The notes under the pieces are model-generated. The model was not told where the DNA came from and did no database searches. It saw only the letters and a list, made by a program, of their open reading frames with translations. Shown in pieces: positions 20,897 through 63,570 of a stretch of DNA of 64,000 nt (position 1 is the stretch's first letter; each line of letters begins with the position of its first letter). Both the position numbers and the translations under genes were made by a program. Origin of the DNA: Mesorhizobium sp. (GTDB lineage Bacteria > Pseudomonadota > Alphaproteobacteria > Rhizobiales > Rhizobiaceae); NCBI GenBank assembly GCA_022833215.1, contig JAIPUZ010000005.1, positions 1 through 64,000 on the forward strand. Reading direction: 5' to 3'.

Positions 20897-22879
20897 TTAG
20901 ACCGGCAGGCTTGCGGCCTGATCAATATCGGCCTGCTTGAAGGCAAACCGCTCTTCGCGGGCCAGTTCCTGCTCACGCTGCTGGTTGGCCATTTCCATTG
21001 GCTTCAACGCGGTTTCGACTTGCGTCCGCTCGGTTTCGGCAACTGTCTTGGCGGTATTGGCCTGCGCCTGCCTGATGTCCGCGAGAGCCTTCGCCAGATC
21101 GATTTCGCTTGGCCCCTGATCGCCACCGGTTCCGGCGTCTGCGAGTGCCTTTTGCCCCTGAGCCTGCTTCAGGAAGGCGGAAGCCTGACGCTCCTGCACC
21201 TCGGCTTGTGCGCCCTGCATCTGGAGGGCTGCGGCCTGCTGCTGTTCCGGGCTGGGCTGGCTGGCCTGCTCCAGAATTTCCAGCACCTTCTTCTTGACGG
21301 AACCTGCCAGCGGCGAGAGCTCGATAAGCACCTGCGGAGGCACCTGCTGGCCTTTGGTCGCCATGATCGACAACGTGTCGTAGGCGTCGGCCTGCATGTT
21401 GATCACGTCGGGGCCTTCATCGATTATGATGTCCACATCGAGCGACCCGATTGCGTTTACCAATGCTGGCATCCCATCCGGCCCGACCTGCATCTGGTTG
21501 ATGGCGAAGAACTGCGCAACCTGATCGTCATCGGTGACCCTGATCCAGCGCTCCGAAGTCCAATGCTGCTGCACCGCATTCCAGATGGCGCGATAAACGC
21601 GGAGTTTCCATCCCCGGAAGGCAAGGAGATACGGGCCAAGCTCTGCCACGCCTGCCTGCTGCTGCAAGGCAATTGCCCGGCCCGACATGTCCTGCACGCC
21701 CTGCCCCATGAGGGCCGGATTGAACCCGTAGTTTTCGATTTCGTCTTTTGCGTCCTGAAGGAACTGGAGCTGACCGGTCAGCTCGGCATTCTTTGCCGCG
21801 TCATCGAACTGAGGCGGCTCCGTTCCCGGATGATATTCAATCACGCCGTCTGGCCGTGCAGCCTCTGCTCTTATTCTCTCAACGTCGCTCGCCTGCCCAT
21901 TGGCGATAATCATCCGGCGAGAGTTGAGCAGGTGGAGCCCCTTCGACCGACGCTGGTTCACCTCGTCCTGGCTGGACTTCATGTTGCGGATGAAGCCGTA
22001 TCGGTCCCCATCATGGTCCACATTTGCCGAGTACATGATGTACTTGCATTCGGAGCGGCCCTTGTTATCGACAAGGTAGCTCTCGCCGCTCTGAAGCAGC
22101 ACCGAACCTGTGTACAGCGACCAGTGCCATTTGCCGCCCCGGCGATACCAGTGATCGACAATCCTGATCTTGCGGCCATTGTCCGAGGTAGAGAACCATT
22201 TATTCTCGTAGTCTGGATTGGTGGTCAGATCGGAACCAGACTCCACCGAGGCGCGGATTTCGGCCTCCTTGTCCGGGGCCAGTTCGATCGCATCCTCGAT
22301 ATCGGCCCACTTCGAAATACCCATATACCGGGCATCGGAGAAATCAGCTTTCAGCGAGCGTGGATCGTAGAAGAAGGAAGACGGGTCAACTTCCTCTAGC
22401 CCGACCTCGATGTCCTCATTGTCGCCCTGCTCAAGCAACAATTCCACGCCGCCAATGCCGTCAACCGCACCATTGAGACCGGAGACGAGAGATATCGACT
22501 GCCATTCCTGCTCGTCGCAGACATAGCGGAGCACTGCGGTCGCAATCTCCGCACCTTCTTCGTGCTTAGGCGTCCGGGGAAAGCCCTTCGGGTCGGATTT
22601 CTGGCGCTCCAGCAGGCCAACAATAGCATTGATCTTGCGCCCGATGCGATTGTACGTGACGACCGGCTGCCGGCGCTTGTTCAGTGCCTTGATCTGGGCT
22701 GCGGTCCACTGTGCGCCATGATAGTAGCGACGTGAGTCCTGCTGCTCCTTGATTTCCTCGTTCTTGGTTTCGAGGTAGGAGAGATACTGTTTCTTCAGGT
22801 CGTCGTGGGAAATGCCGCCTTCTGTCGCAGTTATACCCTGCGCCGCTCCTGACCCCTGAGAATATCCGGTGCTTGCCAT
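20897..22879 (-). CDS. P22-type portal protein
   Basis: 660 residues, near the 700-725 of P22 gp1. Recognisable parts are KKQYLSYLETKNEEIKEQQD, RRYYHGAQWTAAQIKALNKR, RKINAIVGLLERQKSDP and DEGPDVINMQADAYDTL, plus a glutamine-rich helical barrel tail. Twelve copies form the DNA channel at one capsid vertex. The ATG at 22879 overlaps the TerL stop codon by one base (TGATG); a TTG 15 bases upstream is not needed. Confidence 0.88.
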   Translation of the reverse strand: MASTGYSQGSGAAQGITATEGGISHDDLKKQYLSYLETKNEEIKEQQDSRRYYHGAQWTAAQIKALNKRRQPVVTYNRIGRKINAIVGLLERQKSDPKGFPRTPKHEEGAEIATAVLRYVCDEQEWQSISLVSGLNGAVDGIGGVELLLEQGDNEDIEVGLEEVDPSSFFYDPRSLKADFSDARYMGISKWADIEDAIELAPDKEAEIRASVESGSDLTTNPDYENKWFSTSDNGRKIRIVDHWYRRGGKWHWSLYTGSVLLQSGESYLVDNKGRSECKYIMYSANVDHDGDRYGFIRNMKSSQDEVNQRRSKGLHLLNSRRMIIANGQASDVERIRAEAARPDGVIEYHPGTEPPQFDDAAKNAELTGQLQFLQDAKDEIENYGFNPALMGQGVQDMSGRAIALQQQAGVAELGPYLLAFRGWKLRVYRAIWNAVQQHWTSERWIRVTDDDQVAQFFAINQMQVGPDGMPALVNAIGSLDVDIIIDEGPDVINMQADAYDTLSIMATKGQQVPPQVLIELSPLAGSVKKKVLEILEQASQPSPEQQQAAALQMQGAQAEVQERQASAFLKQAQGQKALADAGTGGDQGPSEIDLAKALADIRQAQANTAKTVAETERTQVETALKPMEMANQQREQELAREERFAFKQADIDQAASLPV

Positions 22880-24351
22880 CAGTACGTCATCCAATCGCCA
22901 GCCTCGGGAGCATCATTGCTTGGGCGATAATCGCCTCTTGATGCGCTGTTTGCAGCCTGCGTCACTGGGGTCCACGGCCGGGACATACAGGCATAACGCG
23001 TCTCATCCGCCGCATGGTCTTCTGCGGTAGTGTCAAGGTCTTCAGGGCGGTCGGGGTCGTGCTGGAGCGCCGGGATGGTCCTGATGCTGTCAACGCAAGT
23101 TGAGAAAAACACCAGCATTGGGCGTCCTTCTTCATCGCCATTTAGGCGAGACCGCATCTGATCCCATCCGCCCATTGCTCCGCGCTGGGTAACGCGCTTG
23201 TTGTCCGCCGGACGGAAGAAGATACCCCTATCCATCATGCGATGAGCAATTGACGGGCCTCCATCTTCAGCGAAGGCGGCGGGATCCAAAACCCCGTATT
23301 CGACGGTTTCTTTTTCGCGTTCCTTGATCCCGTCCGCTACCTGCTCTGCCGTGAGCTTAAGGCCAGTATTAGGCCGCCCTGCTACGCACCCGTACCATTC
23401 CCGGTATTTAACCAGTGCGCCGCGCGGAATGACTTGGCCGGCCCCGACAATCATGTCGTCTGATGCTACGGCGTACCAGCCGATTGAGAACGGCTTGGCG
23501 CTGCCCCAGTCCCCGGCCCTGAACCGCATCCAATGATCCGGAATGGCGAACGGACGCACAACATGCCGGCGCTGGTCGAAATTGTCGAAGAATGCACCCT
23601 CAACAACATCCCAATCACCCCACCGCATAGCACGGACAAGGCTCTCGCTACCAAGCCCAGCCAGCCGAAGCTCATAGCCCGGATCGCTTTCAGCCATGGA
23701 CGGGTTGTCCTCTAGCCGCGCTGGTATGTACTGCCTCTGCATTCCGCCTTCGTTGGCGGGGGCCTCAATGACTTTCAGCGGCTCAACGCCGTCGATGAAT
23801 GTCATCTTGACGAACTGATGCCCGATGCCGCCGGGGTTGGCACCGCACACTATGCGTGGGAACTTGCCCCGATACTTCTCCGGGAGCGTGATGCCGACCA
23901 TGCGGACGCGATTGCGTAGGAACCGATAGATAGTTTCGGTGAAGTGCGTCAACTCATCGATAAGCAGGACGTGGATTTCGGCACCCTGATATTTAAATCG
24001 GTCCTTCTCGTCCTTGCAGTGGCAGAGATAAATCTTGCTGCCATTCCAGAACCGGATTTCGTCCTCAACTATCTGGGCAAACCCGCACTCTACCCACCCA
24101 GCCAGGAATTCGCGGAACCCGCTCGGACCCTCCATATGGTTTTTGACCAGATCGTCGCGAATGCGGCGAAATAGATAGACCTGAAGGCCCGGTATCTCCG
24201 AGCACCACGTAATGGCGGCCATACGCATGAGATGGCTTTTGCCGCCCCCGGCCGCGCCGCCGTATAAAATCTCTGTGGCCTCGCTCCAGAATGCTACCTG
24301 CTGCTTTTCGTGCAGGTTGATGTCTAGGGCGGCGCTACTCTGGCTTGCCAT
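22879..24351 (-). CDS. terL: Terminase large subunit
   Basis: 490 residues. The Walker A motif GGAAGGGKS is at residues 31-39, the Walker B motif LLIDE at 129-133, and a coupling motif follows in FPRIVCGANPGGIGH. The C-terminal RNase H-like nuclease half includes RAGDWGSAKPFSIGW and YGVLDPAAFAEDGG with candidate metal-binding aspartates. It packages and cuts the phage DNA at the portal. It overlaps TerS by 17 bases and the portal by one. Confidence 0.93.
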   Translation of the reverse strand: MASQSSAALDINLHEKQQVAFWSEATEILYGGAAGGGKSHLMRMAAITWCSEIPGLQVYLFRRIRDDLVKNHMEGPSGFREFLAGWVECGFAQIVEDEIRFWNGSKIYLCHCKDEKDRFKYQGAEIHVLLIDELTHFTETIYRFLRNRVRMVGITLPEKYRGKFPRIVCGANPGGIGHQFVKMTFIDGVEPLKVIEAPANEGGMQRQYIPARLEDNPSMAESDPGYELRLAGLGSESLVRAMRWGDWDVVEGAFFDNFDQRRHVVRPFAIPDHWMRFRAGDWGSAKPFSIGWYAVASDDMIVGAGQVIPRGALVKYREWYGCVAGRPNTGLKLTAEQVADGIKEREKETVEYGVLDPAAFAEDGGPSIAHRMMDRGIFFRPADNKRVTQRGAMGGWDQMRSRLNGDEEGRPMLVFFSTCVDSIRTIPALQHDPDRPEDLDTTAEDHAADETRYACMSRPWTPVTQAANSASRGDYRPSNDAPEAGDWMTY

Positions 24352-24815: not shown

Positions 24816-25133
24816 CCGCACATGCGGAGAAAGAGGGGCAATGAGTGATAAGCTTGCCTTATCGGTCTAGCGGCCTAAGCCGTCATGATGCTGCGAGGCG
24901 CACCGTAGTCGGCCCCGAAGGGTGGCAGTCTACGCGGGTTTCCCCTGCCGTTTAACCGACTCCCGTGACGTTCGGCTTGCTGTCCTTGTCACGGTCGCAG
25001 CAAGCGCGCCGCCTCGCTATTCCCTTGCGGGAACGAGTGACCCGCCGGGGTGCGCTTCTGTAGAGAGGCGTGGCAGGTGCTGTTCTCGTGAATATCTACA
25101 GCCGGCGATCAACCCGGCTGGCCTGTTGTCAGG
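24816..25133 (-). ncRNA. Candidate structured RNA in the terS leader, with H-type pseudoknot
   Basis: No credible ORF lies between terS and 25223. The stretch consists of consecutive perfect stems: 25099-25105 with 25114-25120 (7 bp); 25013-25016 plus 25020-25024 with 25029-25037 closed by a GCAA tetraloop on the minus strand; 24975-24982 with 24998-25005 (8 bp), whose loop holds 24988-24994 pairing with 24963-24969 (7 bp), a pseudoknot; 24907-24912 with 24956-24961 enclosing 24924-24928/24945-24949 and a UUCG hairpin at 24913-24922; 24871-24882; 24847-24863. The minus strand is favoured by tetraloop types and operon direction. It could be an RNA regulator or part of a packaging site. Confidence 0.6.
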
Positions 25134-53104: not shown

Positions 53105-53132
53105 TTGACAGCAAAAAGCACCCTGATACTAA
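53105..53132 (+). promoter_or_regulatory. Promoter of the nrdAB riboswitch leader
   Basis: TTGACA (53105-53110), a 16-base spacer and TACTAA (53127-53132). Transcription would start near 53139, just before the conserved riboswitch region. Confidence 0.65.
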
Positions 53133-53142
53133 ATGTAGTTGT

Positions 53143-53338
53143 CATGGTTCCTTTCAGATCGCTTGCGGTTCGGAAAGGCTAAGAGGGAAGCCGGTGCCCT
53201 TTCGGGGAATTCCGGCGCTGCCCCCGCAACTGTAAACGGTGAGTCGCTGTCTCTTTCGTGTCACTGGTGCCAAAAGCGCCGGGAAGGCCCGACAGCGACG
53301 AAGATCCGTGAGCCAGGAGACCTGCCCTGACGTTGCAC
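53143..53338 (+). promoter_or_regulatory. Cobalamin riboswitch upstream of nrdA
   Basis: Conserved parts in order: AAGAGGGAAGCCGGTG, the core GCTGCCCCCGCAACTGTAA (53217-53235), a variable arm, and GAGCCAGGAGACCTGCC at the 3' end. This is the AdoCbl-type aptamer. It lies about 110 bases before nrdA on the same strand and should switch the operon off when B12 is plentiful. Confidence 0.93.
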
Positions 53339-53446
53339 GAAACTCGGGCGGGGTGTCCCGGAGGTGCGCCTGCCAGCGCGGCCTGAACCGCGCCTTCCGG
53401 CATGCGTTGCCCCAAGCTTCCCCGTCCACAGCGCCACGGGGACAAG

Positions 53447-56341
53447 ATGCCGGCGACCACTGCACTCCAGACGAACGGGACCGACAAGGTTCCGCCTTCC
53501 ATCGAAACCGATGCCCCCACCCCGACCGAACCGGGATATCGCATCATCCGCCGCAACGGGTCGGTCACGCCCTTCGATCCGACCAAGATCACCGTCGCTC
53601 TGACCAAGGCGTTTCTGGCTGTCGAGGGTTCGGTGGCGGCCGGCTCGCGCCGCGTGCACGATGTGGTCAAGGACCTGACCGAACAGGTCGTGTCGAATCT
53701 CATGCGCCGCATTGGCGAGGGCCGCACCTTCCACATCGAGGACGTGCAGGACCAGGTGGAACTGGCGCTGATGCGCTCGGAGCACCACAAGGTCGCGCGC
53801 GCCTATGTGCTCTATCGCGAAGAGCGCGCCCGCGAGCGTGCGGCCGCCAAAGCCGCCGCTCCTGAATCCGCCGCGCCGTCGCTCCACGTCACCCGCACCA
53901 GCGGCGAAAAGGTTGCGCTGGACGAGGCCCGTTTCCGCCGCATCGTCGAGGAAGCCTGCGAAGGGCTGGAGGCTGTCTCCCCGCAGCCGATCCTGACCGA
54001 AGCCCTGCGCAACCTCTATGACGGCATCACCGAGGACGAACTGTCGCTGGCGCCGATCCTCGCCTCGCGCACGCTGGTCGAGACCGAACCGAACTACAGC
54101 TTCGTTTCCGCTCGCCTGCTGCTCGACCGGCTTCGCCGCGAAGCGCTGAGCTTCGTCACCGGCCGCTCCGAGCAGGCGACGCAGGCCGACATGGCCGAGC
54201 GCTACGCCAGCTATTTCCCGGAATTCATTCGCACCGGCATCGAGGCCGACCTGATCGATCCCGAACTCGGGCGTTTCGACCTCAAGCGCATCGGCGCGGC
54301 ACTGAAGGCCGAGCGCGACCTGAACTTCCAGTATCTGGGCCTGCAAACGCTTTACGACCGCTATTTCCTGCACACGAAGGGCAAGCGCTTCGAACTGCCG
54401 CAGGCATTCTTCATGCGCGTCGCCATGGGGCTCGCCGCCCGCGAGATCGACCGCGAGGCGCGCGCCATCGAATTCTACAACCTGTTGTCGTCCTTCGACT
54501 TCATGTGCTCGACGCCGACCCTGTTCAATTCGGGCACGCTCAGGCCGCAGCTTTCGTCGTGCTTCCTCACCACCATCGGCGACGACCTCGACGCCATCTT
54601 CAAGGGCGTGAAGGACAATGCGCTGCTCGCCAAGTACTCGGGCGGCCTCGGCAATGACTGGACCCCGGTGCGCGGCCTCGGCGCCCATATCAAGGGCACC
54701 AATGGCGAGAGCCAGGGCGTGGTGCCGTTCCTGAAAGTGGCCAACGACACCGCCATCGCCGTCAATCAGGGCGGCAAGCGCAAGGGCGCGGTCTGCGCCT
54801 ATCTGGAAACGTGGCACGTGGACATCGAGGAATTCCTCGACCTGCGCAAGAACACCGGCGACGACCGCCGCCGCACCCATGACATGAACACGGCCAACTG
54901 GGTACCGGACCTGTTCATGGAGCGCGTCGAGGCCGACGGCGAGTGGACATTGTTCTCGCCCGACGAGGTTCCGGATCTGCACGATCTCTACGGCACAGCC
55001 TTCCGCACCGCCTACGAAGCCTATGAGGCCAAGGCCGCGGCCGGCGAGTTGCGGGTCTGGCGCAAGATCCGTGCGCTCGACCTGTGGCGCAAGATGCTGA
55101 CCATGCTGTTCGAGACCGGACATCCGTGGGTGACGTTCAAGGACCCGTGCAACATCCGTTCGCCGCAGGGCCATGTCGGCGTGGTGCACTCCTCCAACCT
55201 GTGCACGGAGATCACGCTCAACACGTCGAAGGACGAGGTGGCCGTCTGCAATCTCGGCTCCGTCAACCTTGCCAATCACGTATCGGAAAAGGGCCTCGAC
55301 CTCGACCGGCTGGCAAGGACGGTGGGCACGGCGATGCGCATGCTCGACAACGTCATCGACATCAACTTCTACACCATCCCGGAAGCCCGTGCCTCGAACC
55401 TGCGCCACCGCCCGGTCGGCCTTGGCCTGATGGGCTTCCAGGACGCGCTTCAGGCCATGCGCATTCCCTACGCCTCGGAAGGCGCCGTCGAGTTCGCCGA
55501 CCGCTCGATGGAAGCGATCAGCTATCACGCCATCTCCGCTTCGGTGGACCTCGCCGCCGAGCGCGGCCGCTATCCGAGCTTCGAGGGCTCGCTGTGGTCG
55601 AAGGGCATCCTGCCGATCGACTCCATCGGGCTTCTGGAGGAAGCGCGCCCCGGCGTGGACATGGATTCCACGTCCACTCTCGACTGGGCGAGCCTGCGCG
55701 ACCGGGTCAGGACAACCGGCATGCGCAACTCCAACACCATGGCGATCGCACCGACGGCAACGATCTCCAACATCTGCGGCGTGGCGCAGTCGATCGAGCC
55801 GGCCTATCAGAACCTGTTCGTCAAATCGAACATGTCCGGCGACTTCACCGTGGTGAACGCGCAACTCGTCCATGACCTCAAGGCCCGTGGCCTGTGGGAC
55901 GAGGTGATGGTCTCCGACATGAAGTATTTCGACGGATCGGTGGGTCAGATCGACCGCATCCCCGACGACCTCAAGGCGCTCTATGCAACCGCCTTCGAGA
56001 TCGACTCCTCGTGGCTGATCGAGGCTGCCTCGCGCCGCCAGAAGTGGATCGATCAGGCCCAGTCGCTCAACCTCTACATCGCCAATCCGAGCGGCAAGAA
56101 GCTGGACGAGCTTTACCGCTTCGCGTGGAAGAAGGGCCTCAAGACCACCTACTACCTGCGTTCGCGCTCGGCCACTCATGTCGAGAAGTCGACGCTCAAG
56201 GGCACCGACGGCAAGCTCAACGCCGTTTCCCCGGCAAGCGTGTCGGCAGCGGAAGCTGCGACGCCGATCGTGGTCGACCCAAGCGCGGCATGGGGCAAGG
56301 CCTGCGCCATCGACGACCCCGACTGCGAAGCCTGCCAGTAA
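53447..56341 (+). CDS. nrdA: Class I ribonucleoside-diphosphate reductase, large subunit
   Basis: 964 residues from the ATG at 53447 (GGGGA 5 bases upstream; an ATG at 53402 is also possible). An ATP-cone domain (YRIIRRNGSVTPFDPTKI) is followed by a second cone-like region. The catalytic barrel has MCSTPTLFNSGTLRPQLSSC, SGGLGNDWTPVR, SNLCTEITLNTS, CNLGSVNLANH and NTMAIAPTATISNICG. The C-terminal CAIDDPDCEAC holds the electron-relay cysteines. It makes deoxynucleotides with NrdB. The B12 riboswitch implies that a B12-dependent class II enzyme exists elsewhere in the genome. Confidence 0.95.
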   Translation: MPATTALQTNGTDKVPPSIETDAPTPTEPGYRIIRRNGSVTPFDPTKITVALTKAFLAVEGSVAAGSRRVHDVVKDLTEQVVSNLMRRIGEGRTFHIEDVQDQVELALMRSEHHKVARAYVLYREERARERAAAKAAAPESAAPSLHVTRTSGEKVALDEARFRRIVEEACEGLEAVSPQPILTEALRNLYDGITEDELSLAPILASRTLVETEPNYSFVSARLLLDRLRREALSFVTGRSEQATQADMAERYASYFPEFIRTGIEADLIDPELGRFDLKRIGAALKAERDLNFQYLGLQTLYDRYFLHTKGKRFELPQAFFMRVAMGLAAREIDREARAIEFYNLLSSFDFMCSTPTLFNSGTLRPQLSSCFLTTIGDDLDAIFKGVKDNALLAKYSGGLGNDWTPVRGLGAHIKGTNGESQGVVPFLKVANDTAIAVNQGGKRKGAVCAYLETWHVDIEEFLDLRKNTGDDRRRTHDMNTANWVPDLFMERVEADGEWTLFSPDEVPDLHDLYGTAFRTAYEAYEAKAAAGELRVWRKIRALDLWRKMLTMLFETGHPWVTFKDPCNIRSPQGHVGVVHSSNLCTEITLNTSKDEVAVCNLGSVNLANHVSEKGLDLDRLARTVGTAMRMLDNVIDINFYTIPEARASNLRHRPVGLGLMGFQDALQAMRIPYASEGAVEFADRSMEAISYHAISASVDLAAERGRYPSFEGSLWSKGILPIDSIGLLEEARPGVDMDSTSTLDWASLRDRVRTTGMRNSNTMAIAPTATISNICGVAQSIEPAYQNLFVKSNMSGDFTVVNAQLVHDLKARGLWDEVMVSDMKYFDGSVGQIDRIPDDLKALYATAFEIDSSWLIEAASRRQKWIDQAQSLNLYIANPSGKKLDELYRFAWKKGLKTTYYLRSRSATHVEKSTLKGTDGKLNAVSPASVSAAEAATPIVVDPSAAWGKACAIDDPDCEACQ

Positions 56342-56504
56342 GCAGGCTCCCGCCCCTCCCCGCCGGGGAGGGCAAAGCTGACAGGCCGGGATGGGGAGAC
56401 ATCGCCCCATCCCGCGCCATCACCATTCATGCGATCCCGACCGGCCTCCGGCCGATGCCTGAAGCGTCAGGGATGGGGTGCGCCAAGCCTAACCGGAGAA
56501 TGAG
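56342..56504. repeat. nrdA-nrdB spacer with two GC hairpins
   Basis: CCCTCCCC/GGGGAGGG (56354-56361 with 56365-56372) and GGGATGGGG/CCCCATCCC (56388-56396 with 56405-56413). The T-runs of intrinsic terminators are missing, so they may protect or process the mRNA between the two subunit genes. Confidence 0.5.
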
Positions 56505-57626
56505 ATGCTCGACTGGTCCGAACCCAAAAACACCCCTTCAATCCCGCTTCCGGGCAAGGATGCGCCTGCCGTCGACGCCACCGGCCTTGGCGAAATCGAG
56601 CGTGGTGCGGCGCGCGTCACCGTCGATGAAAAGCGCATGATCAATGCGCGCGCCGACGTGAACCAGCTCCTGCCGCTTAAATACCGCTGGGCGTGGGAAA
56701 AGTATCTCGCCGGCTGCAACAACCACTGGATGCCGACCGAAGTTTCAATGCAGGCGGACATCGCGCTGTGGAAGTCGAAGGACGGGCTGACCGAGGACGA
56801 GAGGCGCATGCTCAAGCGCAATCTCGGCTTCTTCGCCGCCTCCGAATCGCTGGTCGCCAACAACATCGTGCTGGCCATCTACCGCCACCTCACCAACCCC
56901 GAATGCCGCCAGTACCTGCTGCGTCAGGCGTTCGAGGAGGCGATCCACACCCACACCTTCCAGTACATCGTGGAAAGCCTCGCTCTCGATGAGGGCGAGC
57001 TGTTCAACATGTACCGCGAGGTGCCGTCGATCACCGACAAGGCGGCGTGGGCGCTGAAGCACACCCAGAACCTCGACAATCCCGACTTCAAGACCGGCAC
57101 GCCGGAAGCCGACCAGTCGTTCCTGCGCGATCTCGTGGCCTTCTATGTCATTTTCGAGGGCATGTGGTTCTACACCGGCTTTGCGCAGATCCTGTCGCTC
57201 GGCCGCCGCAACAAGATGGTCGGCATCGCCGAGCAGTACCAGTACATCCTGCGCGACGAGTCCATCCACCTGAACTTCGGCATTGACGTCATCAACCAGA
57301 TCAAGCTGGAAAACCCGCACCTGTGGACGAAGGCGTTCCAGGACGAGGTGCGCGGCATGATCCTCGACGCCGCCGAGCTGGAAGCAGCCTATGGCCGCGA
57401 TACGATGCCGCGCGGCTTCCTCGGCCTCAACGCGGCGTTGTGCGAGCAGTACATGCACTTCATCGCCAACCGCCGCTGCGCCCAGCTCGGCCTGGCACCG
57501 GTGTTCGCCGAGGCCGAAAATCCGTTCCCCTGGATGAGCGAGGCCATGGATCTGAAGAAGGAGAAGAACTTCTTCGAGACCCGCGTCATCGAGTACCAGA
57601 ACGGCGGCGCGCTGGCCTGGGACTGA
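56505..57626 (+). CDS. nrdB: Class I ribonucleotide reductase, small subunit
   Basis: 373 residues. [73 protein letters not shown] and [16 protein letters not shown] carry the glutamate/histidine ligands of the dimetal site in the ferritin-like fold. It supplies the radical to NrdA. Same strand and 163 bases after nrdA, under the same riboswitch. Confidence 0.96.
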
Positions 57627-57732
57627 CGACGGGACGATAAACGGAAGAAGGACATCGCCTGTCGTCTTTGCGCCGAGGCGATGTCGTTTTCTCATGCTCC
57701 TCGCCACCGCGAATGGTGTTCAGATCGAAATG

Positions 57733-57930
57733 CTTAAGGTGCCCGACCGCCTCCGCGGAAGGGAGAATTGGGAAGCCGGTGCCCTCGGCAGGAGGAACCC
57801 CGGCGCTGCCCCCGCAACGGTAGCGGAGCGCAAACCTCGACGGTGAGCCACTGGGGAAACAGCCCCGGGAAGGTGTCGAGGCGGTCCCGCAAGGGATGGC
57901 TCCGGAGCCCGGAAACCAGCCTTGGGCACG
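57733..57930 (+). promoter_or_regulatory. Cobalamin riboswitch upstream of gbcA
   Basis: Conserved parts: AATTGGGAAGCCGGTG, the core GCTGCCCCCGCAACGGTAG (57805-57823), GAGCCACTGGG, and the 3' GAGCCCGGAAACCAGCC. Located 126 bases before gbcA in the same orientation and after the nrdB stop. Confidence 0.92.
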
Positions 57931-58055
57931 TTGGTCTCGACTGATCGCGGTGGGCGGTCAAGGAGCGAATGGTGTGCGACCCCGTTCCGGCGTCGGGCGG
58001 TTGCCGTTCCTTCCCCAAATCACCACCAAGTTCAGTCCTTTAACGAGGACAGGAC

Positions 58056-59303
58056 ATGGACGCCCGTAACGAAATGCTCTCGCTGATCCGCTCCCGCAGG
58101 CAAGGCTGGTCGCTGGAGCAGCCCTTCTACATCGATCCCGATTTCTTCAGGCTCGACATGGAGCTGATCTGGTATCGCGACTGGCTGTTCGTCGGCCACG
58201 ATTGCGAGGTGGCCAAGCCGGGAAGCTTCTTCACCGTGCAGATCGGCACCTATCCGGTCGTGGTGGTGCGCGACCGTGAAGGAAAAATCAGGGCATTCCA
58301 CAATTCCTGCCGCCATCGCGGCAGCCGGGTATGCACGACCGCCAAAGGCACCTCGGCGCGGCTCGTCTGCCCCTACCACCAGTGGACCTACGACCTCGAC
58401 GGCAAGCTCCTGTTCGCCCGCCAGATGGCCGACGATTTCGACCCGTCTGCCCATTCGCTGAAGCCTGTCGCCTGCGAGAGCGTGGCCGGCTACATCTTCA
58501 TCTGCCTGGCCGATGAGCCGGCCGATTTCCAGCCATTCCGCACGCTGATGGAGCCCTATTTCGCGCCGCACAAGCTTTCCGAGGCGAAGGTCGCCTATGA
58601 ATCGACCATCATCGAGAAGGGCAACTGGAAGCTGGTGTGGGAGAACAACCGCGAGTGCTACCACTGCGCCGGCAACCATCCCGAGCTTTGCAAGACCTTT
58701 CCGGAAGCGCCCAGCGTCACCGGCGTCAACGGAGCCGAAAGCGACCCGGAGATGGTCGAACACTGGGAAAAATGCGAGGCCGCCGGCCTGCCGGCGCGCT
58801 TCCGCATCGATGACGCGGGCCAGTTCCGCGCCACCCGCGCGCCGCTGCTGCGCGATGCGGTGAGCTACACCATGACCGGCAAGCCATCGGTGAAGCGCAA
58901 CCTCTCCGACCGGGTGAATGCCGACCGCATCGGCACGCTGATGCTCTATCACTACCCGGCGACATGGAACCATGTGCTGATCGACCACGCGGTGACCTTC
59001 CGCGTAATACCGCTCGGACCGGAGGAGACCGCGGTGACCACCAAATGGCTGGTCAACAAGGATGCGGTCGAAGGCGTGGACTACGACTTGCAGGAACTCA
59101 TCCATGTATGGACGGAGACCAACGATCAGGACCGCCGCATCGTGGAAGAGAATGCCTTCGGCATCCGTTCGCCCGCCTACGAGCCCGGCCCCTATTCGGA
59201 GCTGCACGAGGGCGGCGTGATCCAGTTCGTGGAGTGGTATGCGCACTTCATGGAGCCGCGGCTTTCCGAGGCTGCGAAGCCCCGTCTCAAGAACGTCGCC
59301 TGA
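58056..59303 (+). CDS. gbcA: Glycine betaine monooxygenase, Rieske oxygenase subunit
   Basis: 415 residues. The Rieske 2Fe-2S cluster is bound by C85-x-H87 (CRHRGS) and C105-x-x-H108 (CPYHQW), and the catalytic iron by H203 and H208 in ENNRECYHCAGNH plus a later acidic residue. TTKWLVNKDAVEGVDYD and TNDQDRRIVEENAFGIRS closely resemble Pseudomonas GbcA. The reaction removes one methyl of glycine betaine as formaldehyde, giving dimethylglycine. Related stachydrine or carnitine oxygenases cannot be excluded. Confidence 0.85.
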   Translation: MDARNEMLSLIRSRRQGWSLEQPFYIDPDFFRLDMELIWYRDWLFVGHDCEVAKPGSFFTVQIGTYPVVVVRDREGKIRAFHNSCRHRGSRVCTTAKGTSARLVCPYHQWTYDLDGKLLFARQMADDFDPSAHSLKPVACESVAGYIFICLADEPADFQPFRTLMEPYFAPHKLSEAKVAYESTIIEKGNWKLVWENNRECYHCAGNHPELCKTFPEAPSVTGVNGAESDPEMVEHWEKCEAAGLPARFRIDDAGQFRATRAPLLRDAVSYTMTGKPSVKRNLSDRVNADRIGTLMLYHYPATWNHVLIDHAVTFRVIPLGPEETAVTTKWLVNKDAVEGVDYDLQELIHVWTETNDQDRRIVEENAFGIRSPAYEPGPYSELHEGGVIQFVEWYAHFMEPRLSEAAKPRLKNVA

Positions 59304-59314
59304 AGGAGGAGACG

Positions 59315-60430
59315 GTGAACGCCATGACCAATCCCGGCCTCTACCGCCATCTGGACGAGATGGTGCCGTGGAACGACCGTCTTCAGGTTCTGGAGGTGAT
59401 CGGCATCGTGGACGAGGCCCCGGAAGTGAAGACCTTCACCTTCCGCTCCGATGCCCAGACATGGTTCCGCTACAAGCCGGGCCAGTTCATCACGCTCGAA
59501 CTGCCGCTGGACGACGGCCCCATCATGCGCACCTACACGCTGTCGTCGTCGCCGTCGCGCCCATTTTCCATCGCGGTGACGGTGAAGGCGCAGCCGGGCA
59601 GCGTCGGCACCCGCTGGATGTTCGACAATCTGGGCATCGGCACACGGCTGAAGGCGTTCGGGCCGGGCGGCGATTTCACCCACCACAACCACCCGGCCGC
59701 AAAATATCTGTTCATATCGGCCGGCTCCGGCATCACGCCGATGATGTCGATGCTGCGCTGGCTGAACGACTGCGCGCCGGGCACGGACGTCTCCTTCGTC
59801 AATTGCGCGAGGCGGCCGGAAGAGATCATATTCCGCAAGGAGCTTGAACTTTTGGGCTCGCGCATGCCCGGCCTTTCGCTGTCGTTCCTGATCGAGGAGC
59901 GCTCGTCGCGCGAAAGCTGGTTCGGGCACATGGGGCGCATCGATGCCGTGCGCCTGCCGCTGCTGTCGCCGGACTTCCGCGAGCGGGAGGTGTTCTGCTG
60001 CGGTCCCGAACCGTTCATGCGCGCAGTGCGCGAGATGTTGCAATCCAGCGGCTTCAACATGGCTTTCTATCATCAGGAAAGCTTCGGAGCGCCGCCGGTC
60101 GAGCCCGTTCCGGCTCCCTTCCCCGAACTGCCGGCCAATGCGGACGCCGATGCGGCCGCTGCCGCGGCGGCCGTCCCTGTACGGTTCAACCTCTCGGACG
60201 TGGAAGGCGAATGTCTTCCCGATCAGACCGTTCTTCAGGCAGCGCGTGCAAGCGGAGTGCGCATTTCGGCGGCCTGCGAATTCGGGCTGTGCGGCACCTG
60301 CAAGGTCAGGAAGCTCTCGGGCGAGGTCGAGATGAACCACAATGGCGGCATTCTCGACGACGAGATCGCCGAGGGCTTCATCCTCGCCTGCTGCTCCAAA
60401 CCCCTGTGCGACCTCGAGATAGAAGCCTGA
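59315..60430 (+). CDS. gbcB: Glycine betaine monooxygenase reductase subunit
   Basis: 371 residues. An FAD-binding domain with RTYTLSSSPSRPFSI, an NAD-binding domain with FISAGSGITPMMSMLRW and VFCCGPEPFM, a linker rich in alanine/proline, and a C-terminal plant-type ferredoxin with CEFGLCGTC and a later CC. It passes electrons from NADH to GbcA. GTG at 59315 lies 5 bases after GGAGG and was chosen over ATG 59324. Eleven bases after gbcA. Confidence 0.88.
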   Translation: MNAMTNPGLYRHLDEMVPWNDRLQVLEVIGIVDEAPEVKTFTFRSDAQTWFRYKPGQFITLELPLDDGPIMRTYTLSSSPSRPFSIAVTVKAQPGSVGTRWMFDNLGIGTRLKAFGPGGDFTHHNHPAAKYLFISAGSGITPMMSMLRWLNDCAPGTDVSFVNCARRPEEIIFRKELELLGSRMPGLSLSFLIEERSSRESWFGHMGRIDAVRLPLLSPDFREREVFCCGPEPFMRAVREMLQSSGFNMAFYHQESFGAPPVEPVPAPFPELPANADADAAAAAAAVPVRFNLSDVEGECLPDQTVLQAARASGVRISAACEFGLCGTCKVRKLSGEVEMNHNGGILDDEIAEGFILACCSKPLCDLEIEA

Positions 60431-60432
60431 CC

Positions 60433-60702
60433 ATGGAAAAAGACGAGGCGGCCGTAGTCCTCACACCGCACGACCGGGAACGGGCGGCGAAAATCTCGCC
60501 GCTGCCGCCACCTGAGGAAGTGTTTGTCGACTGGCTGATGTCGGTGCCGCCGCATGCCAGCCTCGAGGACGAGGCACGCCGCCAGGTCGAACTGATCGAC
60601 AGCCGCCCGACCCTGCACCCGGATGTGCGCTGCCTGCGCGCGCTGCTGGTCGCCGTGGCCGGCGAGGGAGAGTGGCAGAGCCCCGCGCCCCGCAATCTCT
60701 GA
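60433..60702 (+). CDS. Small protein downstream of gbcB, 89 aa
   Basis: 89 residues: EKDEAAVVLTPHDRERAAKI, SPLPPPEEVFVDWLMSVPPH, HPDVRCLRALLVAVAGEG. No known domain. It begins two bases after the gbcB stop, so it is probably the third gene of the riboswitch-controlled operon. A role in betaine oxidation is only inferred from context. Confidence 0.65.
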   Translation: MEKDEAAVVLTPHDRERAAKISPLPPPEEVFVDWLMSVPPHASLEDEARRQVELIDSRPTLHPDVRCLRALLVAVAGEGEWQSPAPRNL

Positions 60703-60803
60703 AGCACGTCTCCCGAACGGGAGAACCGGTTTCGGGACGACGGCATGCGAAACAGAAACCTGAAGCGCAAGAAGCGAATCTGAAAGTTCGCGCCGCGCTT
60801 TAG
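60702..60803. repeat. Rhizobial interspersed palindromic repeat, copy 2
   Basis: Shares the GGGAGAACCGGTTTCGG core, AACAGAAACCTGAAGCGCAAG and GCGAATCTGAAAG with the copy at 46066-46168. It sits between the convergent gbcB-side operon and metE. Confidence 0.7.
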
Positions 60804-60863
60804 CCTTGACAATTTTCAGCCAAAGCGGCGCCTGCCGCCGGAAGCCGGCGACAGGCAGGGCGA

Positions 60864-63191
60864 TTATGAGGCCAGCGCCCGCAATTCGCGCGCGGCCGCC
60901 ACCATGTTCACCAGAGCCGGCCGAACCTCCTCCCATTTGCGGGTCTTGAGGCCGCAATCGGGATTGATCCAGATCTGGCTGTCGGCCAGCCGCTTGCGCG
61001 CCAGCTTGAGCAGATCGGTCATCTCGCCGGTATGCGGAACGCGCGGCGAATGGATGTCGTAGACGCCCGGCCCGATCTCGTTCGGATATTTGTAGTTCCG
61101 GAACGCATCGAGCAACTCCATGCGCGAGCGCGAGGTCTCGATGGAAATGACATCGGCATCCATCGCGGCGATGGCATCGATGATGTCGTTGAACTCCGAA
61201 TAGCACATGTGGGTGTGGATCTGGGTCGAATCCTCCACGCCCGACGCGGCCAGCCGGAAGCTGCCGACCGCCCAGTCGAGATAGGCCTTCCACTCCGCCT
61301 TGCGCAGCGGCAGGCCCTCGCGCAGGGCCGCCTCGTCGATCTGGATCATGACCGCACCCGCCTTTTCCAGATCGACCACCTCGTCGCGGATGGCGAGCGC
61401 GATCTGGCGGCAGGTTTCCGAACGCGGGATGTCGTTGCGCACGAAGGACCAGTTGAGGATCGTCACCGGACCGGTGAGCATGCCCTTGACCGGCCTGTCG
61501 GTCAGCGACTGCGCATATTGCCACCAGCGCACGGTCATCGGGTTGGGCCGCGAGACATCGCCGTAGATGATCGGAGGGCGCACATAGCGCGAGCCGTAGC
61601 TCTGCACCCAGCCCGCCTGCGTGAAGGCGAAGCCCGAAAGCTGCTCGCCGAAATACTGCACCATGTCGTTGCGCTCGAACTCGCCGTGAACCAGCACGTC
61701 GAGCCCGATTTCCTCCTGCCAGCGAATGGCGGCCTCGGTCTGCTTGCGCAGGAAGGCCTCGTAATCGGCAAAGCTGAGTTCGCCCTTTGCATGGGCGGAG
61801 CGGGCCTTGCGCACCTCGGCCGTCTGGGGGAAGGAACCGATGGTGGTGGTGGGGAAGCTCGGCAGGTTCAGCTTCTCGCCCTGCTTGCGGCGTCGTTCGG
61901 CAAAGGCGCTCTTGCGACGTGCCATGGCGTCATCCACGGCGGCCAGCCTGCCCTCGACCAGCGGATCGTGGACGCGGAGCGATTTGCGGCGCGAGGCGAT
62001 GGCATCGGCGCTGGCCTGAAGCGCTTCGGCAACCTCGCCGCGCCCCTCGGACAATGCCCGGCCCAGAAGCACGAGCTCATCGAGCTTTTGCGTGGCGAAG
62101 GCGAGCCACGACTTCAGTTCCGCATCGAGCGCGGTCTCCAGCTCCAGATCGACCGGCACATGCAGAAGCGAGCAGGACGGGGCGATCTCGATGCGGTCGA
62201 GCGGCCAGCCGCAGACCAGCGGCTTCAGGTAATCGAGTGCGGCGGTGAGGTCGGCACGCCAGACGTTACGACCATCGATCAGCCCGAGCGACAGCACCAG
62301 ATTCTTCGGCGCCAGCCGTGCCACCTGCTCAAGCTGCTCCGGCGCGCGCACCAGATCGATATGCAGGCCCGAGACCGGCAGCGACAGGGCGAGGTCCAGA
62401 TTGTCACCGAGCGCGCCGAAATAGGTGGCGAGCATGATGCCGAGCGCTGGCACCTCCTCGGAGAAATGGCGATAAGCCGTTTCCAGCGCGGCACGCTCAC
62501 CGTCATCGAGATCGAGGACAAGGCACGGCTCGTCGATCTGCACCCAGTCGGCGCCGGCCTTGTACAGACGGCCGAGCAGTTCCGAATAGACCGGCAGCAG
62601 CTTGGGCAGCAGCGACAACAGGTCGAACTCCTCGCCGCGCGATTTGGCGAGCCTGAGGAATGTGACAGGCCCGAGAATGACCGGGCGGGTGTGGATGCCC
62701 AGTTCCTTCGCTTCAAGGAAATGGTCGACAGGCTTGGCGGTGGCGAGCACGAACTGCTGTTCGGGCGCAAGTTCCGACACCATGTAGTGGTAGTTGGTGT
62801 CGAACCACTTGGTCATTTCCAGCGCAGAGGTGCTGTGGACATGGCCCGGATGGCCGCAACCCGCCTCGCCCTGGCTGCCCCGCGCCATGGCGAAATAGGT
62901 GTCGAGCGGCACCTCGCCGCCCGTCCAGCCGTAGCGCTGCGGGATCGCCCCGACCATGACGGCCGTGTCGAGCACATGGTCGTAGAGCGAGAAATCGTTC
63001 GAGGGGATGCGCGTCACCCCCTTGTCGTGTTGCTGGCGCCAGTTTTCGGCGCGCAGGCGCTTTGCCGTTTCAAGCAGCGATTCGGCGGTATCCTTGCCGG
63101 ACCAGTAGTTTTCGAGAGCGAACTTGAGTTCGCGGCGGCGGCCGATACGCGGCACGCCAAGCGTTGCGACGGGAACTGTCGAGATAGCCAT
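60864..63191 (-). CDS. metE: Cobalamin-independent methionine synthase
   Basis: 775 residues. VATLGVPRIGRRRELKFALE at the start, then two barrel halves; the C-terminal one has PTTTIGSFPQTAEVRKAR, WVQSYGSRYVRPPIIYGD, GPVTILNWSFVRNDIPRSE, IHTHMCYSEFNDII and INPDCGLKTRKWEEV, with the zinc-binding His, Cys, Glu and Cys. It methylates homocysteine with methyl-tetrahydrofolate polyglutamate. The ATG at 63191 matches the family start; a longer frame to 63278 is leader. Confidence 0.96.
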   Translation of the reverse strand: MAISTVPVATLGVPRIGRRRELKFALENYWSGKDTAESLLETAKRLRAENWRQQHDKGVTRIPSNDFSLYDHVLDTAVMVGAIPQRYGWTGGEVPLDTYFAMARGSQGEAGCGHPGHVHSTSALEMTKWFDTNYHYMVSELAPEQQFVLATAKPVDHFLEAKELGIHTRPVILGPVTFLRLAKSRGEEFDLLSLLPKLLPVYSELLGRLYKAGADWVQIDEPCLVLDLDDGERAALETAYRHFSEEVPALGIMLATYFGALGDNLDLALSLPVSGLHIDLVRAPEQLEQVARLAPKNLVLSLGLIDGRNVWRADLTAALDYLKPLVCGWPLDRIEIAPSCSLLHVPVDLELETALDAELKSWLAFATQKLDELVLLGRALSEGRGEVAEALQASADAIASRRKSLRVHDPLVEGRLAAVDDAMARRKSAFAERRRKQGEKLNLPSFPTTTIGSFPQTAEVRKARSAHAKGELSFADYEAFLRKQTEAAIRWQEEIGLDVLVHGEFERNDMVQYFGEQLSGFAFTQAGWVQSYGSRYVRPPIIYGDVSRPNPMTVRWWQYAQSLTDRPVKGMLTGPVTILNWSFVRNDIPRSETCRQIALAIRDEVVDLEKAGAVMIQIDEAALREGLPLRKAEWKAYLDWAVGSFRLAASGVEDSTQIHTHMCYSEFNDIIDAIAAMDADVISIETSRSRMELLDAFRNYKYPNEIGPGVYDIHSPRVPHTGEMTDLLKLARKRLADSQIWINPDCGLKTRKWEEVRPALVNMVAAARELRALAS

Positions 63192-63302
63192 TCCATAACC
63201 CCGATGGTTGGAGCGTGGTGACCGGAACAGCCGTCGTCGCCCGCCGGGAAAGCAGACGCATCGCGGCCATCGGGACACCCCGCCCGTGGACGTTTTCTGT
63301 CA

Positions 63303-63475
63303 TGGCAGGTCTCCTGGCTCACGGGTCATCGCCTGCGCCCGTCTTCCCGGGGCTTTCACCCCAGTGACATGGATGGACGCAGGCTCTCCGCCTACAGTTG
63401 CGGGGGCAGCGCCGGCTTTCCTTTCAAAGGCACCGGCTTCCCTCTTAGCTTCAGGGCGTAAAATACCCCGAAGAA
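63303..63475 (-). promoter_or_regulatory. Cobalamin riboswitch upstream of metE
   Basis: Read on the minus strand: TAAGAGGGAAGCCGGTG, the core GCTGCCCCCGCAACTGTAG (63410-63392), and GTGAGCCAGGAGACCTGCC at the 3' end. It is 112 bases before the metE ATG. This is a classical placement for a B12 riboswitch. Confidence 0.95.
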
Positions 63476-63570
63476 CCACGACGAGGCGCAGTGTCGTGGT
63501 TTCAGGCACCGCTGTCAATATCACATAAAGAAATGTTTATATCGTGATCTGGTCTTTTCGGATTTTCCTA

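Follow-up and report, generated by a model that had tools for sequence, protein, structure and literature searches.

Cobalamin aptamers precede genes of three B12-independent enzyme systems in a Mesorhizobium contig, and the gbcA aptamer is found almost only together with MtgC

We suggest that a 64-kb stretch of a Mesorhizobium sp. genome (assembly GCA_022833215.1, contig JAIPUZ010000005.1, positions 1 to 64,000; the whole of this stretch is hereafter called the window) carries three operons of one cobalamin-riboswitch regulon, the products of which would act as B12-independent stand-ins for B12-dependent enzymes, with a GbcAB-like Rieske oxygenase and reductase as the backup for betaine demethylation. 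This is very probably the best overall explanation of the data presented below. According to it, the class I ribonucleotide reductase NrdAB would replace NrdJ, MetE would replace MetH as well as the methionine-synthase half of MtgBCDE, and GbcAB would replace the B12-dependent glycine-betaine demethylase MtgBCD. By inspection the gbcAB part is the least secure of the three pairs, yet it has the strongest comparative support: across genomes, the gbcA aptamer is kept almost only where the B12-dependent betaine demethylase also exists.

Three aptamers and the genes behind them

Screening with the Rfam covariance model of the cobalamin riboswitch (RF00174, gathering score 31.5 bits) finds exactly three aptamers in the window, all of which cover the full model (positions 1-189) with scores of 92.9-134.5 bits, in agreement with the original prediction of three such elements within 10 kb. 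Its assignment of nrdAB and metE as downstream genes held up as well, with the NCBIfam cut-offs passed. As for the third operon, predicted to be gbcAB plus a small open reading frame (ORF), GbcA and GbcB are indeed the best NCBIfam models for the Rieske oxygenase and reductase pair; because both subunits score below the curated equivalog cut-offs, the pair is referred to here as GbcAB-like. The features are, in order of position:

53128..53343, plus strand: cobalamin aptamer 5' of nrdAB, canonical core AACTGT / GAGCCAGGAGACCTGCC (RF00174 122.5 bits, E 3.1e-30)
53447..56341, plus strand: nrdA, class I ribonucleotide reductase alpha, 964 aa (NF005544 1727 bits, cut-off 965, passed)
56505..57626, plus strand: nrdB, class I ribonucleotide reductase beta, 373 aa (NF005550 679 bits, cut-off 309, passed)
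57720..57938, plus strand: cobalamin aptamer 5' of gbcAB, variant subgroup AACGGT / GAGCCCGGAAACCAGCC (RF00174 92.9 bits, E 8.9e-22)
58056..59303, plus strand: gbcA-like Rieske oxygenase, 415 aa (NF058607 517 bits, below cut-off 670)
59324..60430, plus strand: gbcB-like flavin/ferredoxin reductase, 368 aa (NF058606 380 bits, below cut-off 500)
60433..60702, plus strand: small ORF, 89 aa (no Pfam or NCBIfam match)
60864..63191, minus strand: metE, B12-independent methionine synthase, read from the ATG that begins MAIST (TIGR01371 1135 bits, cut-off 930, passed)
63287..63495, minus strand: cobalamin aptamer 5' of metE, canonical core (RF00174 134.5 bits, E 1.1e-33)

The GbcA-like protein is composed of a Rieske domain (PF00355) and a ring-hydroxylating catalytic domain (PF00848), its closest PDB chains being 3n0q, 3vca and 4qup, and the GbcB-like reductase combines FAD, NAD and 2Fe-2S domains (PF00970, PF00175, PF00111). 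Relatives of the small ORF were detected by tblastn at 7 of 80 loci, in six cases on the same strand beyond gbcB with 35-65% identity, and several of them have a PEEVF..WL-like stretch; its product could be a demethylase helper.

Across the whole genome (4.55 Mb, 131 contigs) RF00174 gives eight matches, three of them being those in the window. The remainder comprise one aptamer 5' of a cobW-cobN cluster (C54), two 5' of Peripla_BP_2 genes (C37 and C61), one at a contig end (C116) and one weak match on C84. The C116 aptamer (L095:67-266, minus strand) is strong at 114.9 bits and points off the end of the contig, its target gene being absent there in the assembly.

B12-dependent counterparts in the same genome

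The exchange of enzymes envisaged in the original prediction presupposes B12-dependent counterparts, and both metH and nrdJ, as well as a gene set corresponding to a corrinoid-dependent betaine demethylase, are present. The genome encodes a full MetH of 1269 aa and an NrdJ scoring 2335.5 bits. A search with the B12-binding domain gave four matches, one of them below the cut-off, and among these are MetH, a mutase-size ORF of 726 aa and the 233-aa corrinoid protein MtgC. The last is encoded on L093, together with (by Pfam) RACo/RamA, a pterin-binding enzyme (MtgD), MTHFR, DUF1638 and an MTTB methyltransferase (MtgB), and an S-methyltransferase gene lies ~6 kb past the MTTB gene. By its gene content, this set on one contig is that of MtgBCDE, which in Ruegeria pomeroyi is described as a B12-dependent glycine-betaine demethylase that also serves as a methionine synthase (PMC12478193).

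Co-occurrence of the gbcA aptamer with MtgC

Two panels of genomes were compared. For panel 1, species genomes were scanned with the GbcA protein and the best 80 of 593 loci (68-83% identity) were taken; aptamers were called by a pattern scan upstream of gbcA, and MtgC was searched for in 79 genomes, that of L048 being left out. Both aptamer and MtgC are present in 55 of the 79 genomes and neither in 23, while one has the aptamer only and none has MtgC only; five of the MtgC calls (L014, L023, L024, L038, L043) rest on fragments. Panel 2 consisted of 80 genomes, 72 from the same family (at most three per genus code) and eight from the class. In the family search, 171 of 394 genomes had gbcA; of 157 genomes chosen initially, 77 were left out of the MtgC search. 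The class-level search, at E 1e-140, added only 8 genomes with gbcA out of 385. By pattern, 60 panel 2 genomes have both traits, 14 neither, five MtgC only and one the aptamer only. The pattern scan had overlooked 2 of 63 panel 2 aptamers (L153 and L174), which Rfam recovered with 112.5 and 68.8 bits, and the corrected counts are 62, 14, three and one, respectively.

Removal of duplicates left 153 distinct leaders, including that of the window, and MtgC status is known for 152 of these: 112 have both, 35 neither, three MtgC only and two the aptamer only. Further to that, an nhmmer profile trained on 53 leaders (many of them also in the test set, L061 and L166 not in training) gave no match exceeding 1.7 bits in any of the 40 leaders called aptamer-negative.

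The two genomes in which an aptamer occurs without MtgC, namely L061 (Rhizobium sp. Leaf371) and G853, have the two lowest-scoring aptamers on this profile, with 60.6 and 55.2 bits compared to 87.1 for the next one and a median of 146.0; the G853 copy still reaches 36.1 bits with RF00174. Core-letter changes are common to both (GCTGCGCCC and GGACACCTGTC), and the two cases therefore possibly go back to one event. Such damage would look like what is expected if the B12-dependent enzyme had been lost and the switch had thereby become purposeless.

The gbcA leader and a proposed mechanism

Three further elements flank the gbcA aptamer, one upstream and two downstream:

57660..57687, plus strand: direct repeat TGTCGY-N16-TGTCGY, candidate GbdR-type activator site (by half-site and spacing)
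57943..57959, plus strand: P13-like hairpin of 6 pairs, loop GGUGG (in 24 sequences, 100% of cells are paired and 2 pairs show two-sided changes)
58035..58050, plus strand: anti-Shine-Dalgarno hairpin (GUCCU/AGGAC) immediately 5' of gbcA, a candidate for the expression platform (92% of cells paired, counted over those 18 of the 24 sequences that have letters at this place)

The upstream repeat (TGTCGY-N15/16-TGTCGY, a 21/22-base period) occurs in exact form in the 500 bases preceding gbcA in 84 of the 115 distinct leaders with an aptamer and in 32 of the 38 without one. Its distance from the start codon is mostly 330-400 bases in the former and mostly 70-325 bases in the latter; the pair in front of gbcA is the only one of its kind in the window. 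CdhR sites are reported as a direct repeat GGTCGC with a 15-bp spacer and as very similar to GbdR sites (PMC5806209). The window repeat resembles these sites (NGTCGY repeats, ~15 bases between) in half-site and in its 21-base period, whereas its own half-site is TGTCGY with 15-16 bases between, and a GbdR-type activator is suggested by this likeness of sites. At the edge of the mtg region, a partial ORF (L093:1-442, minus strand) looks by eye like a GlxA/GbdR-type regulator and is a candidate for the gbcA activator. One activator common to gbc and mtg was considered and rejected: genome-wide, the repeat gives 22 matches versus 14 for a reversed control, hardly above it, and no exact match lies in the mtg region of L093.

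Downstream of the aptamer, GGGC at the edge of the P13-like loop is complementary to GCCC in L5 and might form a kissing loop (L5 and P13, like J6/3 below, being labels that we partly presume). The gbcA aptamer of L174 (L174:1320-1516, minus strand), recovered by Rfam in a genome in which MtgC is present, deviates from the other leaders compared both in L5 (GCTGCCTAGC for GCTGCCCCCGC) and in the P13 loop, differences that possibly amount to a compensated kissing loop. The longest complement to the Shine-Dalgarno sequence averages 5.08 in aptamer-bearing leaders (shuffled 4.42) and 3.68 in aptamer-less ones (shuffled 4.08), the window's own gbcA leader having a complement of only 4, not above average, and the stretch after the gbcA aptamer folds better than its shuffles (z -2.19). 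A switch between the GGUGG loop and a conserved CCACC (anti-L13), suggested by the window fold, was tried in 53 leaders, 50 of which yielded the loop, and was discarded, the longest complement in these 50 averaging 4.70, hardly more than the 4.36 of shuffled sequences. Terminator-like sites number 8 versus 7.6 expected, and sigma-70 promoters 0 versus 0.9 expected, neither count being informative.

We propose that plentiful cobalamin would occupy the aptamers and hold down all three operons jointly, in the case of gbcA probably by closing the leader so that the ribosome site is hidden; for both the ligand and the OFF sign of the switches we infer the behaviour typical of the riboswitch family. 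Once cobalamin became scarce, the operons, gbcAB included, would be expressed, and GbcAB would take one methyl group off betaine using O2 and NADH and no corrinoid. Such a route would keep betaine usable and spare B12 for MetH and NrdJ. The GbdR-type site 5' of the aptamer would add betaine as a second input, with the activator starting transcription when betaine is present.

Several observations weigh against this proposal. Glycine betaine as the substrate of GbcAB is suggested by sequence likeness, and both subunits fall short of the NCBIfam cut-offs. Three genomes (G186, G637, G824) have MtgC and no aptamer at gbcA. No gbcB lies beside gbcA at 15 of the 80 panel 1 loci, all of them aptamer-less, and the aptamer-less clade therefore differs in more than the aptamer. 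Lastly, the sequences after the nrdA and metE aptamers fold no better than shuffles (z 0.01 and -1.07), and for this reason no expression platform is resolved for these two genes.

Substrate of the Rieske pair

It may be that the substrate of GbcAB is some other quaternary amine, such as proline betaine (which we take to be the substrate of Stc2), and that the enzyme's B12-dependent counterpart is another member of the MttB family that also uses MtgC. This is unlikely. In its favour, MtgC is a shared corrinoid carrier, so that its co-occurrence with the aptamer does not in itself identify the substrate, and mtgC and mtgD are said to be often accompanied by multiple MttB-type ORFs, up to seven in number (PMC12478193). 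The oxygenase, below the NCBIfam cut-off for GbcA, reaches 532 bits against 3vca and 4qup, the latter named a demethylase; against this, GbcA and GbcB are the best models for both subunits, and the spacing of the upstream repeat is that of GbdR-family sites. The genome's own MTTB protein beside MtgC also speaks for glycine betaine, being nearer to the structure of glycine betaine methyltransferase (9yce, 416 bits) than to that of trimethylamine methyltransferase (7xcl, 127.5 bits), with 417 bits for 2qne; its best match, 4yyc (971 bits), is named putative trimethylamine methyltransferase, which qualifies the assignment.

A variant aptamer subgroup

The core motifs AACGGT and GCCCGG are present in 115 of 115 distinct gbcA aptamers, where other aptamers have AACTGT and GCCAGG. 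ACCAGCC stands in place of ACCTGCC in 113 of the 115, and the Rfam partner of this change, the base before GGGAA, is T in 111. GGAAACC replaces GGAGACC, likewise in 111, its middle being unpaired in Rfam (J6/3); the other four have C at this position, and both damaged copies are among them. The four diagnostic letters are absent from all 45 parsed of 46 other aptamers, a set made up of 40 from the best-scoring 150 rows (biased to consensus) and six from the window's own genome, and one of these has T before GGGAA. The letters of AACGGT and GCCCGG vary jointly, and complementarity would be preserved if they faced each other. They were tried as one compensated pair, an arrangement rejected because both the Rfam structure line and RNAalifold pair the stretch otherwise. 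A consensus fold of the gbcA type from 24 leaders has 54 pairs, 23 of them with two-sided changes, the downstream hairpin included.

The same variant letters stand in front of gbcA in further families of the class (G380, G419, G458), where the orthologs have 52-58% identity, and the subgroup therefore looks old. Inquilinus limosus (Rhodospirillaceae, L012) has gbcAB behind a variant aptamer with a GbcA identity of 81%, and falls into one tree group with Mesorhizobium-type sequences (fork support 94); in this case gene and switch look as if they were transferred together.

Could these letters signify a change of function? A small number of binding-site residues can reportedly convert the upper-ligand choice of a cobalamin riboswitch (PMC9600662), and an activating corrinoid riboswitch has been reported (PMC10653944). 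With four letters (near-)fixed in gbcA aptamers, including the G to A change in unpaired J6/3, the gbcA-type aptamer might bind a cobalamin state other than adenosylcobalamin (AdoCbl) or be an ON switch, in which case the operon would not simply be one for B12 shortage. We consider this decidedly improbable: one change is matched by a compensating base at its Rfam partner and two others vary jointly, so that drift without a change of ligand is possible, the remaining core is intact, and the tie to a B12-dependent counterpart fits a repressing switch. The specific version, in which the gbcA type is a separate subclass with its ligand moved from AdoCbl to methyl- or unalkylated cobalamin (the state on which methyl transfer via MtgC depends), is quite unlikely too. 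If it were true, gbcAB would read the methyl-transfer pool and metE and nrdAB would read AdoCbl, three switches 10 kb apart responding to different pools. A natural variant with an altered J6/3 base is a ready test object for ligand choice in cobalamin riboswitches.

Independent and specific loss of the gbcA aptamer

Returning to the proposed regulon of B12-independent stand-ins, the co-occurrence of aptamer and MtgC was placed on a FastTree phylogeny of 161 GbcA proteins (duplicates included), on which there are 11 changes of MtgC and 12 of the aptamer. Well-supported branches provide 8 independent MtgC contrasts. Over 200 pairings of these, the aptamer changes the same way in 7.4 on average, the opposite way in 0 and shows no difference in 0.6, corresponding to a median sign-test p of 0.0156 (range 0.0078-0.070). 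Panel 2 had been added because the panel 1 tree by itself gave only 3 contrasts (p 0.25), too few to reach significance. Among the first 45 genomes, 10 of 10 without the gbcA aptamer retain 2-7 other RF00174 matches and 9 of 10 retain NrdJ, and among the next 35, 13 of 13 retain a MetH-size ORF with a B12-binding stretch; the loss of the aptamer is therefore specific to gbcA. That the two traits co-occur only through shared ancestry, or through other differences between whole genomes, and have no functional link would agree with the rarity of change in both traits, the few contrasts of panel 1 and the gbcB missing beside gbcA in the aptamer-less clade, and is nevertheless very improbable given that none of the 8 contrasts of the larger tree opposes, that two leaders without MtgC retain a damaged aptamer and that the other aptamers, NrdJ and MetH-size ORFs persist.

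Conservation and clustering of the three operons

A cobalamin aptamer lies directly upstream of metE in 12 of 12 panel genomes having this gene. The same holds for class I nrdA in 9 of 10 genomes; in the remaining one the match is without its N-terminal part. Within the flanks of gbcA (up to 10 kb), metE was found in 2 of 12 (the window genome and Mesorhizobium sp. J18) and class I nrdA in 6 of 10. We conclude that the regulon is conserved and the cluster occasional, all three operons together being rare. Of the physically clustered B12-shortage regulon put forward in the original prediction, the regulon is supported as a conserved set, with joint switching of the three operons by B12 as a prediction, while the clustering is a feature of some genomes only. 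The counts do not rank the operons by natural frequency, as the panel was chosen for having gbcA. In Mesorhizobium sediminum (G001 C1:503469-506008, minus strand) a class I nrdA behind a cobalamin aptamer is in two pieces with an in-frame TGA, which is either decay or an assembly error.

Relation to known systems

Isozymes of B12-dependent enzymes are listed as a functional class of cobalamin regulons (PMC3766115), and regulation of the B12-independent isozymes of ribonucleotide reductase and methionine synthase by B12 elements was described earlier (PMC545781). The window shares with these known cases the aptamer family, the logic and two operons, and differs from them in a third pair, GbcAB/MtgBCD, with its own aptamer subgroup, and in having all three within 10 kb. 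As far as the literature searched shows, the third isozyme pair under cobalamin riboswitches and the aptamer subgroup are new, the metE and nrdAB cases being known. The GbcAB monooxygenase of Pseudomonas and Chromohalobacter likewise consists of a Rieske oxygenase and a FAD/2Fe-2S reductase; unlike in these bacteria, the window subunits score below the equivalog cut-offs and the operon has a B12 aptamer. In the metE riboswitch/MetH pair of Priestia megaterium, the switch is also on the independent enzyme, and for the most part it fits the corrinoids that the dependent one prefers (PMC9600662); the enzymes here differ, and the likeness concerns the arrangement.

The portions of PMC12478193 consulted mention GbcAB as an alternative in other bacteria and tie no riboswitch to it, the word 'riboswitch' appearing once, within a cited title. 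No report of gbcAB under a cobalamin riboswitch was found in the literature searched (titles and abstracts, with subscription papers and the supplementary tables of PMC3766115 outside reach). An aptamer in front of these Rieske genes could already be on record in literature beyond that searched. Early surveys of B12 elements reportedly named a dioxygenase/ferredoxin pair with the placeholders ardX and frdX; a literature search for these names returned only a paper on delta-proteobacteria, which uses frdX for a ferredoxin gene next to that of a hybrid-cluster protein.

The proposed regulon links vitamin status with the use of betaine, a major plant and marine osmolyte, and many of the panel 1 relatives are presumably legume symbionts. 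Because MtgBCDE carries out both betaine demethylation and methionine synthesis (PMC12478193), B12 shortage would cost the cell both, and MetE and GbcAB would form a matching double backup for these two jobs. In genome comparisons, presence of the gbcA aptamer can be used as a marker for the MtgBCD route. The two damaged aptamers are natural experiments in riboswitch loss. Glycine betaine is listed for B12 fermentation with S. meliloti in a table row of a review (PMC8123684), and the link may therefore bear on industrial B12 production.

Other observation in the window

Outside the three operons, the window has a match to abiF RNA (RF03085) at 25040-25077 on the minus strand, with 38 bits versus a gathering score of 37, near an ORF (22879-24351) that looks phage-terminase-like by eye.

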